From assembly GCF_013415885.1 (NCBI RefSeq), contig NZ_CP058910.1, forward strand, positions 434,001 to 498,000: 64,000 nt of DNA, written 5' to 3'. The stretch's first letter is position 1. Each line of letters begins with the position of its first letter. Origin of the DNA: Halosimplex rubrum. GTDB taxonomy: Archaea > Halobacteriota > Halobacteria > Halobacteriales > Haloarculaceae. The notes under the pieces were generated by a model. The model had not been told where the DNA came from. It was given only the letters and a program-made list of their open reading frames with translations, and ran no database searches. The position numbers and the translations under genes were made by a program. Of the stretch, positions 24,249-34,425 are shown piece after piece.

Positions 24249-26315
24249 TCACTCCCCGTCGAGTTCGACGGCGGAGACGTGGTCGAAGGTGGCCTCGCAG
24301 TAGGCGCCGATCATGGTCGAGCAGGCGGCGAGGCCGCCGCAGACGGGGTCATCGAGGTCGGCCGAGCGCTGGTCGACGGCGTGCCACTCCTCGCGGTCGG
24401 CGGAGACGAAGGCGGTGACGCGGTCGCCGGTCCGCTCGACGGCGAACCACTCGAAGTTGCGCTCGCCGCTCTCCAGCAGTTGCGCGCGGGTGGGCTCGCC
24501 GTCGGCGGTCCGCCAGCACACCTCCGTGCGGCCGTCGCCGGTCCGACCGACGTAGCCGAACGTCGCCGACTCGCCCGTGTCGTCGCGCAGCATCACCCCG
24601 GCCTTGCTCCGGTCGGCGGGCGCGTCGAACTCGTCGAGACGCGCCTCGACGCGGCAGGGGCCGCGGATCGAGGCCCACCGGAAGTGACACTCGTTGACCC
24701 GTCCGAGGAGGTTGTCGCCGGCCGCCCGGAGCGTCCAGCGGTCGACCGACTCGTCGTGGGCGGACTCCCCGGCGTTGAGCACCTGCCCCACGTCCCGGCC
24801 GGTCGTCAGCGGCCGCGGGGTGCCGGTCCCCGGGAGCGGGTCGGGGTCGGTCACCAGCAGGACGTTGCCGAACTCGAAGCGCGCGCCCCCGTCGCGGCTC
24901 TCGTCGATCCGGAGGTCCCAGCCGTGGGTGTCGGCGACCTCCGAGACGATGGCGAGGTCGGCCCCCGTCGCGGCGGTGTCGTAGCCGGCGTCGAGCAGTT
25001 CCTCGCGCTCGGCGGCGGGGACGGCCGGGCCGTCGTCGGCGACGAAGAAGCCGTCGTCGGTGGCCCCGACGTGGACGGTCACGCCGGGGCCGGTCCGCTC
25101 GAGACAGTGCTCGAAGCAGTTCTCGAACAGCGGTTTCAGCTGCAGGCGGTTGGTGTAGAGGACCGTCTCGGCCGGGAGGGCGACCTCAAGCGTCGCCGCG
25201 GCGGTGGCGACCTCGTCCCAGACGACCTGGAGAAACGAGCCGACCGCGACGCCGCCGACGGGGGCGGGCGCGGTGCCGCTGGAGGCGGCGAGTTCGCTCA
25301 CGTCCTCGACGAGTTCCGCCATCCGGTCGAGGGCGTCGCTCACCCGCTCGGCGGCCTCCGGGTCGCCCTCGCGGGCGAACTCCTGGTAGGCCATCGCGAC
25401 GTGCAACGGGTTGCGCAGGTCGTGGGCGACGAAGCTCGTGAAGTCGTCGAGCCGGCGATTCTGGGCCCGCAAGTCGCGTATCTGGCGCTTCTCGTCGCTC
25501 ACGTCCAGCGTGACGCCGACGAGTCCGCGGGTCCGGTCGCCGTCGCGCCAGGGCACTTTCGTCGTGCGGAGCCAGCGACCGGCCTCGGGGGGGCCGTGGC
25601 ACTCCTCGCGGTCGCGGATCGCCTCGCCCTCGTCGATGACGAGCCGGTCGTCGCCCAGCGCCTCGACCTTCGCCGCCTCGTCCCAGGAGTACAGCTCCCA
25701 GTCGGTCTTGCCGACGGCCTCGACGGGACCGGGAGCGCCGTGTACGTCGGCCATCTTCAGGTGTCGCGCCCGCTCGTCTTTGACGTAGATCGGCAGTTCG
25801 AGCTCCGAGAGGATCGCGTCGAGCATGTCGCGGTCGGTCGCCGCGCGGTAGCGCCTGTCGTGAGTGGTCAGCGCCTCCGCGACCGTCTCCAGCAACTCCT
25901 CGTGCGTCGAGACGGCCGGGCCGCCCGGCTGGGGGAGATAGGCGAACGCGCCGGCCCGCGTCGCCGCGCTGGCGAGCGATTCGTCGCCGTCGGCGGCGTA
26001 GACGACCACCGGGAGGTCCGGATACTCGTCGACGGCGGCGGCGACGCAGCCGACCGGGTCGGCGAGCACGTCGTCGACGACGAGACAGCCGACTGACTCG
26101 TCGTCGGCGAGTCGGTCCAGCGCGCTCGCGCAATCGGCTGCGGCGGCCGCTTCGACGGCGGGGTCGGTGTCGGTCGCGGCCGCCGCGCGGACGACGTCGC
26201 TCGTCACCGGCGACGGGAACGACCACCGCTCGACCGCGTTCGCGACGGCCGCGCCCACCTCGTCCTCGCCCGCCGCTATCACGACCGTCGACGGACCGTG
26301 CAGGTACTTGCTCAC
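24249..26315 (-). CDS. soluble PAS histidine kinase with receiver-like N-terminus and DUF1349-like C-terminus
   Basis: 688 residues, no membrane segments. Order: degenerate receiver-like domain (about 5-160; LVVDD present but no conserved Lys), PAS domain (about 175-290, PIYVKDERARHLKMAD), HisKA with FVAHDLRNP (phospho-acceptor H298), and a HATPase domain (about 400-510). In the HATPase, the second N-box Asn is His (FENCFEH) and the last glycine loop is altered (ATGADL), so ATP binding may be weak. The C-terminal ~170 residues look like a DUF1349/lectin-type beta-sandwich (KAGVMLRDD, FEWFAVERTGDRVTAFVS). The GTG at 26315 was chosen because the domain starts there; an ATG at 26435 is an alternative. 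Confidence 0.8.
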   Translation of the reverse strand: MSKYLHGPSTVVIAAGEDEVGAAVANAVERWSFPSPVTSDVVRAAAATDTDPAVEAAAAADCASALDRLADDESVGCLVVDDVLADPVGCVAAAVDEYPDLPVVVYAADGDESLASAATRAGAFAYLPQPGGPAVSTHEELLETVAEALTTHDRRYRAATDRDMLDAILSELELPIYVKDERARHLKMADVHGAPGPVEAVGKTDWELYSWDEAAKVEALGDDRLVIDEGEAIRDREECHGPPEAGRWLRTTKVPWRDGDRTRGLVGVTLDVSDEKRQIRDLRAQNRRLDDFTSFVAHDLRNPLHVAMAYQEFAREGDPEAAERVSDALDRMAELVEDVSELAASSGTAPAPVGGVAVGSFLQVVWDEVATAAATLEVALPAETVLYTNRLQLKPLFENCFEHCLERTGPGVTVHVGATDDGFFVADDGPAVPAAEREELLDAGYDTAATGADLAIVSEVADTHGWDLRIDESRDGGARFEFGNVLLVTDPDPLPGTGTPRPLTTGRDVGQVLNAGESAHDESVDRWTLRAAGDNLLGRVNECHFRWASIRGPCRVEARLDEFDAPADRSKAGVMLRDDTGESATFGYVGRTGDGRTEVCWRTADGEPTRAQLLESGERNFEWFAVERTGDRVTAFVSADREEWHAVDQRSADLDDPVCGGLAACSTMIGAYCEATFDHVSAVELDGE

Positions 26316-30288: not shown

Positions 30289-33200
30289 TCACTCCGTCGG
30301 GGACTCGCCGGCCGCCGAGTCGGCGGCGGGCAGGGAGACGACGACCGCGGACGAGTCGCCCGAGTCGTCGACGCGGGCGGACCCGTCCGCGCGGTCGACC
30401 ACCCAGGCGAACAGCCAGGCGCCGGCGTCGCGGTGGCGGTCGAGGGCCGCCTCGGGCGGCGCGACGAACGGGTCGACGGTCCCGCGGTCGACGCCCGAGT
30501 CCGGGAGCGAGACGCGGCACTCGACCCGCCCGTCGGCCTCGCTCGCTCGGACGCGGACGGTCGGGGCGTCGGCGGCGCTGTCCCGGGCGAGCGCGCCGAA
30601 CAGGGCTTCGAGTCCCGTCACGAGCGACGGCGGGGCGACGACCGCCCGCTCGGCCGGGAGGGTCGCCGAGACCGACACGGGCCGGCGACGCTCGGCGGCC
30701 GCCTCGGCGGCCGCGTCGACGACGGTCGAGAGCGACTGGGCTCGCTCCGCGTCGCCGGGCCCGACCGCCCGCTCGGCCGTGCGGGCGGTCGTCGCGGTCG
30801 CAGCGAGATCGTCGCTCGCGCGCTGGATCGACCGCGCCAGCGCGAGCGGGTCGTCTGTGTCCTCGGTGTCGTCGGCAGTGTCGAGACCGGTGTCGTCGGT
30901 GTCGCCACCGGTCTCGTCGCCGTCGGCCAGCGCGTCGGCGACGAGCTGGGCGTGGCCGGTCACGAGCGTGAGTTCGTTGCGGAGGTTGTGCCGGAGGACC
31001 CGACCGAGCACCCGCTTGAGCCGGGCGAGTTCCGCGGCGCGGCGCTCGCGGGCGGTGACCGCTCGACAGGTGCAGACGGCTCCGTCGAAGGCGTCGGGGT
31101 CGGCGACGGTCAGCTCGTAGCGGTGGCGGTCGCCGTCGGCGCCCCGGACGCGCGCACAGAAGGTCCGGTCGACGCCGACGGGTCGCCACCACTCGTCGGT
31201 GTCGACGGCCGGGTCCCGGTCGCGGCCGCCCTCGTCGTCGCTGCCGTGGCCGCCGTCCGGGCCCCGAGCGCCGTCGACGGGCCGGTCGCCGTCCGCGGTG
31301 ACGGTCGCGAAGGCCGCCTCGACGTGGGTGCCCCGCAGCGCCGACCGGGGGCGACCGAGCAGGCGTTCGAGCGCCTCGTTGACCAGCGCCAGCCGGCCGT
31401 CGGCGTCGACGACGAACATCGGGTCGCCGGCGCTCTCGACGAGCGTCCGGTAGCGTTCGAGCCGCGGGTCCGCGGCCGCGCCGGTCACGTCGCGGGCGAC
31501 GTTGACGACGCCGGCGTACTCGCCGGCCTCGCGCCGGACGGCGAAGTGCAGCGCCAGCGTGACCCGCTCGCCGTCGGCCGTCTCGAAGGCCACGTCGAGC
31601 ACCTCGCTGTCCAGCTCCGGCGTCGCGAGCAGCCGCTGGACGGCCAGTTGCCCCTTCTCCAGCTCGCCCGGCGCCATGAACTCCGCCGAGTGGACCCCGA
31701 CCATGTCCTCGTGGCCCAGCGCGTCGGCGAACGCCTCGTTGTGGTACACCACCTCGCCGTTCGCGTCGACGACCGAGATGCGGTCGCGGGCGTGGTCGAC
31801 CAGCGCCGACAGCAGCGCGCGACGGCGCTCGCGCGCGACCGCCGGCGTCAGGTCCCGCGCGTAGCGCACTCGGAGGTCGTCACCGTCGACCGACAGCGTC
31901 AGGCCCCACTCGCCGACGCGGCGGCGGCTCGTCCCGACGGTCGCGGTCGTGACCGCCGCGCTCTCGCCGTCGGCCGGCGGGTCGGCCGCGTCGGCGAACC
32001 CGGGGTGGCTGTCCGGCACGCGGGTCGCCGTCCCCGCGTCGGTCGCGACGCGGAGGGCCGCGCCCCCGGACGGTTCGACGGTCTCGCCAACGGTCGGATC
32101 GGCGGCCCCATCGGCAGACGGACGGACGGCCTCGCCAGCGGACCGATCGGGGGCTTCGCTGTCGCTCTCGGCCGCGTCCGCCCCGGCGTCCCGCTCGCGG
32201 GGCGCGTCCCCGTCCGCGCCGGCGAGCGCGAGGACCTTCTCGACCAGGAACGCGGCCGGGGCGGTCCCCGTGCCCTTCTCGACGAGGCTGTCGACGGCGG
32301 TGAGACGCGCCTCGTCGCCGGCGTGGGCAACACCGGCGTAGCAGACGACGGGGACGTCGGCCGCCGCGGCCGCGTCGGCGAGGCGGTCCCAGCCGGGGTC
32401 GTCGAGGCGGTCGGTCACCAAGCAGTCGACGCGGCCGGTCGCCAGCGCGTCGACGGCGCCGTCGACGCCCCCGGCGCGCTCGACCGCGACGGTCGGGTCG
32501 ACGCCGGCGGCGGCCTCGCGGATCCGCGCCGTCGCCGAGCGGTCCGGGTCCAGGTGACAGACGCGCACGTCGGCGCCGCCGGGGTCGGCCGTCGTCGCTC
32601 CCCGGTCGCCGGAGCCGCTCAGCGGACCGTCGGCGGTGTCGGCGCGGTCGAACCGGATCGTCGCCCGGGTGCCGTCGTCGGTGGCGAACGACAGGTCGCC
32701 GCCCGATTTGGCGACGACCCACTCGACGAGCCAGAGGCCGACGCCGCTGCCGTGTTCGAGCGGCGTCTCCGCGCCGCGTTCGAGCGCCGACAGCTCCGCG
32801 TCGGGGATCCCCGGACCGTCGTCGGCGACCGAGAGGGTCACCGACCGCTCCGCGAGCGTCGCCGTCACCGAGACCGTCGGGGCCTCGCCGGCGTGACGGA
32901 GCGCGTTGTCGAGGAGGTTGCGGACCGCCAGGTCGACGACCGGGACGGCCCGAACGTCGACCGACGGCACGTCCACATCGACGGCCGCCGCCGAGCCGCC
33001 GTCGACCGACGCGACCGCGCGGTCGACGGCCTCGTCGAGGGCGACGGTCGTCGGCCCGGGGTCGGTGTCGACGATGCGGTCGACCGCCGCGGTCTTGGTG
33101 ACCAGCGCCGACAGCGCGTCGGCGCGTTCGCGGATCGCCGCCGCGAGCGCCGCGGGCTCGCCGTCGACGGCCTCGGCCAGGCGGTCGGCCAGCTCGCCGA

Positions 33201-34425
33201 TCTCGCGGACGCCGTCGGCGACGTCCGTGCAGACGACGCCGGCGAGCAGCCGCCGGAGCCGTTCGAGTTCCGCCCGGCGGCGCTCGCGCTCGGTCACGTC
33301 GCGAAAGGTGCCGACCGTCCCGACGACCGCCCCGTCGGCCCGCACCGGCCCGAAGGTGGCCTCGAACCGGCGGTCTCGGCCCTCCGCGTCCGGGAGCCGC
33401 AGGTCGGTGTCGTGCCACCGGCGACGGTCGCCCGCGCGAACGGTCTCCAGGGCCGCGGCGATCCGCTCGGCCGCCTCGGACGGGACCGGGTCGCTCACCG
33501 CCAGCCCCTCCAGGTCCGCGGGGTCGGCGCCGAGGAACTCGCCCATCGCCGCGTTGGCGAGGGCGATCCGGTCGTCGACGTCGACGACCCACATCGGGTC
33601 GGCGGCGCTCTCGACGAGCGTCCGGTACTGCTCGACGCGGTCGGCCCGCTCGGCCTCGTGGCCGGGACGACGGACCGCGCCGAGGACGCCGCCGCCCGAC
33701 CGTCCGGTCAGCGCGACCGAGAGCACGACACGCGACCCTCGCCACCGGAACTCGAACTCGCGAGTCAGCTCGGTCTCGGGGTCGAGGTCGCCGACCGCGG
33801 CCGTCCACGCGGGGCGCTCGCGCTCGGCGACGACCCGCTCGACCGACCGCCCGACGAACGGCGCCGGGTCGGCGCCGAGCCAGGCCGCGAACGGCTCGTT
33901 GCAGTAGGCGATCCGGCCCGCGCCGTCGGTCGCGAACAGGCCGTCGCGGGCGCGCTCGGCGAGCGTCTCGAACAGGTCGAGCCGGTCGGCCCGCTCGCGG
34001 GTCCGCGTCACGTCCTCGAACAGCGCCAGCCGGTCGGCGGCCGAGTCGGGGGGACACGCCAGGCCGGCGTGGCGGACGACTCGCCGACCCGCGTCGGTCT
34101 CGACCGCCAGTACGGTCCCGCGGGTCGCCGCTCCCTCGGCGGCCGCCGCCGCGACCCGCTCCATCGGCGCGCCGTCGGTCGCCGCGGCCGCGAGGCCGTC
34201 GTAGAAGTCCGCCTCGCCGGTCGCGACCGCCGGCTCTACACCCAGGGCGGCGTCGAGCGGGGCCGTCGCGTCGACGACGCGGCCGTCCGCGAGCGCCACG
34301 GCGACACACCGGCGCTCGCGGACCGCGTCGGCGACCGCCCCACCCGCCGCTCCGCCGTCCGTCGACCCGGCGTCGGCCGGCGGCTCCGCTCCGCCGTCGG
34401 CTGCCCCCGAATCCCCGTCCGTCAT
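30289..34425 (-). CDS. tandem multi-PAS histidine kinase with two complementary half-kinase modules
   Basis: 1378 residues, soluble. Module 1: three PAS-like domains (about 30-405), a dimerisation region in which the usual R-H-D-V-R-N box reads C399-T-D-V-A-D (no histidine), and an intact HATPase (N503/N507, DDGPG at 535-539, GSGVGLWLV near 558). Next is a receiver-like domain (about 625-745) with D672 and K717, and an acidic linker. Module 2: two PAS domains (about 850-1135), an intact box VLRHNLRNE with H1146, then a HATPase remnant lacking the N box and both glycine loops (SLPDSGVD, AGAWLFAWVV). ATG at 34425 follows from the domain start. Light, redox or small-molecule input through PAS is likely but unspecified. 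Confidence 0.85.
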   Translation of the reverse strand: MTDGDSGAADGGAEPPADAGSTDGGAAGGAVADAVRERRCVAVALADGRVVDATAPLDAALGVEPAVATGEADFYDGLAAAATDGAPMERVAAAAAEGAATRGTVLAVETDAGRRVVRHAGLACPPDSAADRLALFEDVTRTRERADRLDLFETLAERARDGLFATDGAGRIAYCNEPFAAWLGADPAPFVGRSVERVVAERERPAWTAAVGDLDPETELTREFEFRWRGSRVVLSVALTGRSGGGVLGAVRRPGHEAERADRVEQYRTLVESAADPMWVVDVDDRIALANAAMGEFLGADPADLEGLAVSDPVPSEAAERIAAALETVRAGDRRRWHDTDLRLPDAEGRDRRFEATFGPVRADGAVVGTVGTFRDVTERERRRAELERLRRLLAGVVCTDVADGVREIGELADRLAEAVDGEPAALAAAIRERADALSALVTKTAAVDRIVDTDPGPTTVALDEAVDRAVASVDGGSAAAVDVDVPSVDVRAVPVVDLAVRNLLDNALRHAGEAPTVSVTATLAERSVTLSVADDGPGIPDAELSALERGAETPLEHGSGVGLWLVEWVVAKSGGDLSFATDDGTRATIRFDRADTADGPLSGSGDRGATTADPGGADVRVCHLDPDRSATARIREAAAGVDPTVAVERAGGVDGAVDALATGRVDCLVTDRLDDPGWDRLADAAAAADVPVVCYAGVAHAGDEARLTAVDSLVEKGTGTAPAAFLVEKVLALAGADGDAPRERDAGADAAESDSEAPDRSAGEAVRPSADGAADPTVGETVEPSGGAALRVATDAGTATRVPDSHPGFADAADPPADGESAAVTTATVGTSRRRVGEWGLTLSVDGDDLRVRYARDLTPAVARERRRALLSALVDHARDRISVVDANGEVVYHNEAFADALGHEDMVGVHSAEFMAPGELEKGQLAVQRLLATPELDSEVLDVAFETADGERVTLALHFAVRREAGEYAGVVNVARDVTGAAADPRLERYRTLVESAGDPMFVVDADGRLALVNEALERLLGRPRSALRGTHVEAAFATVTADGDRPVDGARGPDGGHGSDDEGGRDRDPAVDTDEWWRPVGVDRTFCARVRGADGDRHRYELTVADPDAFDGAVCTCRAVTARERRAAELARLKRVLGRVLRHNLRNELTLVTGHAQLVADALADGDETGGDTDDTGLDTADDTEDTDDPLALARSIQRASDDLAATATTARTAERAVGPGDAERAQSLSTVVDAAAEAAAERRRPVSVSATLPAERAVVAPPSLVTGLEALFGALARDSAADAPTVRVRASEADGRVECRVSLPDSGVDRGTVDPFVAPPEAALDRHRDAGAWLFAWVVDRADGSARVDDSGDSSAVVVSLPAADSAAGESPTE

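Follow-up and report, generated by a model that had tools for sequence, protein, structure and literature searches.

Kinase mutants of EnvZ that lack the phosphoacceptor histidine and mutants that lack the CA domain complement each other. The domains of EnvZ also function in vitro when split, and CheA3 and CheA4 of Rhodobacter sphaeroides form a kinase only when together (PMC3591291); intermolecular complementation of CheA is likewise on record (Swanson 1993, in the reference list of PMC5956149). The window analysed here, a stretch of 64,000 nucleotides from Halosimplex rubrum (GCF_013415885.1, contig NZ_CP058910.1, positions 434,001 to 498,000), carries a histidine kinase gene that can be set beside these systems. 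As in CheA3/CheA4, its ATP-binding domain and its phosphoacceptor histidine lie on different units, neither of which is predicted to work alone. However, CheA3 and CheA4 are two proteins of the CheA family with whole domains missing, whereas the Halosimplex units are HisKA-type modules of one chain, not separate proteins, and both damaged domains are still present. Engineered complementation in CheA and EnvZ resembles the predicted arrangement in that one subunit gives the CA domain and the other the histidine, but it concerns laboratory mutants in a mixed dimer, whereas the Halosimplex kinase occurs naturally, as a fusion, and is conserved.

Archaeal REC-HisK proteins (PMC5847659) have a Rec-PASn-DHp-CA layout, which is also that of a standalone 750-aa Halosimplex paralogue and of the related module 2 taken alone (N-terminal Rec, PAS repeats, C-terminal DHp-CA), but the tandem kinase has two cores per chain, with one histidine and one ATP site lost. 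MsmS and RdmS share with module 1 an intact CA domain and an absent phosphoacceptor histidine; they differ in that the accessible part of their description (PMC11784639) holds no second His-bearing module. A tandem kinase from another Haloarculaceae genus (G058, L152 1465-6018, plus strand, 1517 aa) also places two DHp-CA cores in one haloarchaeal protein, but it is not an orthologue and keeps the H, N, G1 and G2 boxes in both cores. The notion that a tandem layout always decays is ruled out by this protein. A search of the open-access literature returned no description of a tandem kinase of the Halosimplex kind, which is weak evidence of absence.

Gene and domain architecture

The protein has the architecture PASx3-DHp1-CA1 fused to Rec-PASx3-DHp2-CA2, with the following features.

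30289..34425, minus strand: tandem histidine kinase gene, 1378 aa starting MTDGDSG; six Halosimplex genomes have it as one open frame whose MT start agrees
33661..34338, minus strand: module 1 N-terminal sensor region, residues 30-255, two PAS-like domains (Pfam PAS stretches; collinear self-match with module 2)
33274..33648, minus strand: last PAS of module 1, residues 260-384 (Pfam PAS 265-377, whole-protein E 6.4e-39)
33070..33273, minus strand: DHp1, residues 385-452, degenerate phosphoacceptor box (A1 profile alignment from position 16, past the H box; helix-1 variability)
33226..33228, minus strand: T400 codon, replacing the phosphoacceptor His (Thr in 5/6 orthologues, His in G006)
32620..33048, minus strand: CA1, residues 460-602, intact ATP-binding domain with N503/N507, D535 and HGSGVGLW (HATPase_c 4.7e-18; motifs 6/6)
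32212..32571, minus strand: pseudo-receiver, residues 619-738 (hhalign to same-genome receivers; D626/P627, D672, A697, K717)
31051..31935, minus strand: module 2 sensor region, residues 831-1125, PAS domains (Pfam PAS stretches; identity to a standalone Rec-PAS kinase)
30751..31050, minus strand: DHp2, residues 1126-1225, H box intact (VLGRVLRHNLRNELTLV, same in 6/6)
30988..30990, minus strand: H1146 codon, predicted phosphoacceptor (invariant 6/6; box as in intact kinases, e.g. RHNLRNEL of L087)
30316..30723, minus strand: CA2, residues 1235-1370, ATP site lost (N, G1 and G2 boxes absent 6/6; without a Pfam HATPase_c match; high variability)

The two halves self-align collinearly from end to end (28% identity, E 5e-22), indicating that the protein is an internal tandem duplication, and residues 574-1036 are 39% identical to a standalone Rec-PAS kinase. 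A variable acidic loop lies in DHp2 at about 1168-1194. Pfam, run on the 1378-aa protein, recognised four PAS stretches and one HATPase_c (499-594, whole-protein E 4.7e-18), and neither HisKA, Response_reg nor a second HATPase_c, so that CA2 and both DHp domains were missed. A first-pass annotation of the window had read the gene as a tandem kinase with complementary losses and had suggested a profile search of each segment.

Complementary losses in the two modules

All residues named in that annotation (CTDVAD, N503, DDGPG, GSGVGLWLV, D672, K717, and RHNLRNE with H1146) are in place, and its description of the two losses was confirmed residue by residue. The module 1 H box reads C399-T400-D401-V402-A403-D404, with Thr at the phosphoacceptor position 400, and DHp1 (385-452) contains no other His. 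CA1 has N503/N507, DDGPG at 535-539 and HGSGVGLWLV from 558. Judged as a HisKA-type histidine kinase, module 1 thus lacks the phosphoacceptor histidine and possesses a CA domain with N, G1 and G2 boxes. Module 2 is the converse: its H box, R1145-H1146-N-L-R-N-E-L, supplies the phosphoacceptor histidine in 6/6 orthologues, and CA2 reads ALFGALA, SLPDSGV and DRHRDAGAW at the sites expected for the N, G1 and G2 boxes, none of which is present in any of the six. The A1 profile, built from 11 ordinary haloarchaeal kinase cores, detects module 1 with E 1.9e-48, in an alignment that begins only past the H box, and splits module 2 into a CA2 piece (E 5.8e-22) and an H-box piece (1.6e-7); since it matches both cores, both are true but damaged kinase cores.

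A census of kinases in the window's own genome (profile matches plus retrieved stretches) gave about 39 cores with a readable H box, among which module 1 is the only His-less core and 30289-34425 the only two-core gene. The histidine is kept beside a damaged CA domain in three census cores, namely module 2, the unrelated L103 and, in part, the neighbouring kinase L121, and two of the four damaged cores share one protein, each lacking what the other keeps. An H box with Asn after the His is normal in this genome, where several intact kinases carry RHNLRN. L103 (G000:C1:4263529-4264116) is a single-core gene with an intact RHNVRNDM box and lost N, G1 and G2 boxes.

In a tree that included the last PAS, the two modules group with the standalone paralogue and with a Rec-HK from another genus in a single clade (support 0.995), within which the order of branching is not resolved and module 2 sits on a long branch. 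As judged from this clade, both cores derive from one Rec-PAS-HK subfamily, and the simplest history would be duplication, then fusion, then complementary degeneration.

Orthologues and order of the losses

The Halosimplex sample comprised eight genomes including that of the window, with one (G007) only 71% complete. Full-length orthologues of 55-88% identity occur in five of the others (G002, G003, G004, G005 and G006), so that, with the window copy, six species have an open frame of about 1400 codons; G001 and the 71%-complete G007 yielded none. In scans that used the C-terminal part of the protein, no relative turned up in the other Haloarculaceae of a 57-genome sample, nor among the best ten candidates per genome in an order-level sample of 243 genomes.

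CA2 is dead in all six Halosimplex copies, and the CA1 motifs and the H1146 box are kept in all six. The module 1 position is Thr in the window copy and in four orthologues 72-88% identical to it; the most diverged copy, G006, retains a histidine in the sequence RHDVGR, a box that is itself drifting, as the usual Arg and the Asn/Thr after the His are also lost. Because G006 keeps the module 1 histidine while its CA2 is already dead, the losses did not always occur together: by parsimony they are sequential, CA2 first and the module 1 histidine later, on the stem of the other five, and G006 on this reconstruction shows the intermediate step. All five His-less copies trace back to a single ancestral loss, so their conservation does not amount to five independent events. 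Both losses are present in five of the six copies, and G006 is half of a counter-example of the kind the first-pass annotation had named, a homologue with only one loss, its remaining box being eroded as well. The G006 orthologue (L040) also ends in a long low-complexity DADADTDADAD tail that is absent in the others.

Constraint on the retained and lost parts

Variable columns were counted in the five species with both losses and compared with an intact standalone Rec-PAS-HK paralogue from the same five genomes (L002 and its orthologues, with an RHDVRTGL box and intact CA). Column variability was used in place of dN/dS by domain, which was dropped as synonymous changes are too few and codon use too biased. 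In the CA domains, 30/116 columns vary in CA1, 56/114 in CA2 and 20/112 in the paralogue. CA2 is more variable than the paralogue CA (p=6.6e-7) and than CA1 (p=0.0004), and CA1 does not differ significantly from the paralogue CA (p=0.15), these p values being rough as columns are not independent of phylogeny. In DHp helix 1, the counts are 9/32 for module 1, 3/32 for module 2 and 1/32 for the paralogue; DHp1 is more variable than the paralogue (p=0.013, likewise rough), DHp2 is near it, and the direct comparison of DHp1 with DHp2 is not significant (rough p=0.11). The helix around H1146 is nearly frozen, whereas that around T400 is not. Such a pattern would be expected of a working pair made up of CA1 and H1146.

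The receiver region

The first-pass annotation had noticed a receiver-like domain between the modules, with D672 and K717, and had cast it as an internal relay. The domain is present but degenerate. Its homology to receivers appears only in profile-profile comparison (hhalign against 25 same-genome receivers, 97%, E 1.3e-10); Pfam gave no match and a PDB search nothing firm. Among the five key residues, D626 of the DD pair is followed by P627 in place of the second acidic residue, A697 stands for the Thr, and D672 and K717 are retained, the phospho-site D672 being replaced by Glu in G006 and the standalone Halosimplex paralogues. The published definition counts any receiver without all five as a pseudo-receiver (PMC12632262), and by one estimate up to 40% of archaeal REC-HisK receivers may escape phosphorylation (PMC5847659). 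Given P627 and A697, with Glu for D672 in G006, the domain is classed as a pseudo-receiver and the relay is not supported; the domain may act as a regulatory input.

A proposed working kinase and its alternatives

We favour, with moderate confidence, the reading that CA1 and H1146 constitute one obligate kinase, produced by intragenic subfunctionalisation of a tandem duplicate. A Rec-PAS-HK gene would have been duplicated in tandem and fused in the Halosimplex lineage, giving a two-core kinase in which CA2 presumably lost ATP binding first and DHp1 its histidine later in most species. The two modules would then build one catalytic site, CA1 binding ATP and phosphorylating H1146 of DHp2. In the simplest geometry, DHp1 and DHp2 would pair within the chain as a pseudo-dimer and CA1 would reach across their bundle; alternatively, two chains could swap partners. 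The phosphoryl group on H1146 would pass to a separate response regulator, with the PAS domains, like the pseudo-receiver, serving as putative regulatory inputs. AlphaFold models are of low confidence, with a mean pLDDT of 47.3 for the module 2 core and of 36.5 for residues 260-1378 (three sequences).

The argument runs through CA1. As CA2 is dead, loss of the module 1 histidine would end all autokinase activity unless CA1 uses H1146, and the CA1 motifs are still intact. CA1 stays constrained after that loss, which suggests that it had another acceptor, and H1146 in the same chain is the nearest. Loss of the CA domain by itself is no sign of cross-module work, since some non-tandem haloarchaeal kinases also pair an intact histidine with a poor CA domain. 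Sequence comparison establishes the losses and how far they are conserved, their order by parsimony, and a constraint pattern that matches them; on this basis, the protein probably functions only through transfer from the ATP site in one copy to the histidine in the other. The original suggestion of two halves forming one working kinase thus gains support from the conserved CA1 and H1146 box and the looser lost parts, and is parted from the relay that came with it.

CA1 could equally serve another protein. The alternative built on this, which we consider unlikely, has CA1 as an active ATPase that, within a mixed dimer, phosphorylates a different kinase's histidine; H1146 would either receive its phosphoryl group from another kinase or act as a phosphatase site, and the halves would belong to different complexes. 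RetS-GacS mixed dimers are known (PMC4866733), and archaeal kinases without an H box, RdmS among them, show ATP binding and hydrolysis and may have another protein as their target (PMC11784639). The adjacent kinase gene (24249-26300, minus strand) is a candidate for the partner, a Rec-PAS-HK that keeps its histidine and has a broken N box: it carries an AHDLRNPL box, with NCFEHCL/NCFERCL as N box and TGADLA/TGTDLA as G2 in the window, G002, G004 and G005, and is intact in G006. However, G003 has a His-less tandem kinase and no orthologous neighbour at the locus, the neighbour's DHp falls on a different kinase branch in the tree, and a same-chain partner would be far more concentrated. A coupling of the neighbour's damage to the module 1 histidine loss is likewise not supported, as G003 is without the neighbour. 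This neighbour (24249-26300; L038, L040, L041, L042; L078) belongs to a second kinase family, one in which opposite losses are found from species to species, and its G001 homologue shows the reverse loss, His to Arg with the CA domain intact.

It is quite unlikely that the protein is a pseudokinase, no longer a kinase at all, in which CA1 senses ATP or changes conformation and H1146 is a phosphatase or phosphotransfer site for a response regulator, under control of the PAS inputs. The Asn at +4 of the H1146 box is kept, and the solved-structure relatives of module 1 include DivL (4q20), a pseudokinase. Archaea do contain HisKA proteins that lack HATPase, and these may retain a role as phosphatases or in phosphotransfer (PMC5847659). 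Against such a role, the residue at +1 of H1146 is Asn, not the Glu/Asp of the HE/DxxN/T phosphatase motif (PMC3591291), and all ATP and Mg boxes of CA1 remain intact after the module 1 histidine loss. That the losses are neutral wear, without mechanism, in a redundant duplicate on its way out is very improbable: the gene is missing from two of the eight Halosimplex genomes (one just 71% complete) and CA2, DHp1 and the linkers drift fast, but the frame of about 1400 codons is open in six species and CA1 and the H1146 box are nearly as constrained as in the intact paralogue.

Returning to phosphorylation of H1146 by CA1, the protein may, as a more tentative proposal, be a natural single-chain split kinase, in which the two-fold symmetric dimer has given way to an asymmetric pseudo-dimer of fixed arrangement, whose ATP site and phosphoacceptor are each single and obligate. 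It would have arisen in steps, through duplication, degeneration and complementation, and a sister species would still carry the intermediate. If true, this would be a natural asymmetric histidine kinase with one ATP site and one histidine per chain, so that single mutants could report cis or trans geometry and half-of-sites behaviour. It would also offer an ordered series (G006 with the histidine, the others without) for a duplicated enzyme dividing its work within one gene, and another case among the poorly studied archaeal kinases.

Insertions behind the N box

The window's own tandem kinase is without an insertion that recurs in its relatives. Directly behind the N box, several unrelated Halosimplex kinases carry one to three units of a repeated short insertion, ENAVEHGSTSPxSQxxxDAVEH. 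The carriers are L038, L039 and L042 (in the module 1 CA), L117, L119 and L122 (in the window's genome), and L040/L077, L080 and L027. Some copies contain the palindrome GTCGAGC-ACG-GCTCGAC, and the repeats look as if insertion had recurred at a single point in the ATP-binding domain.
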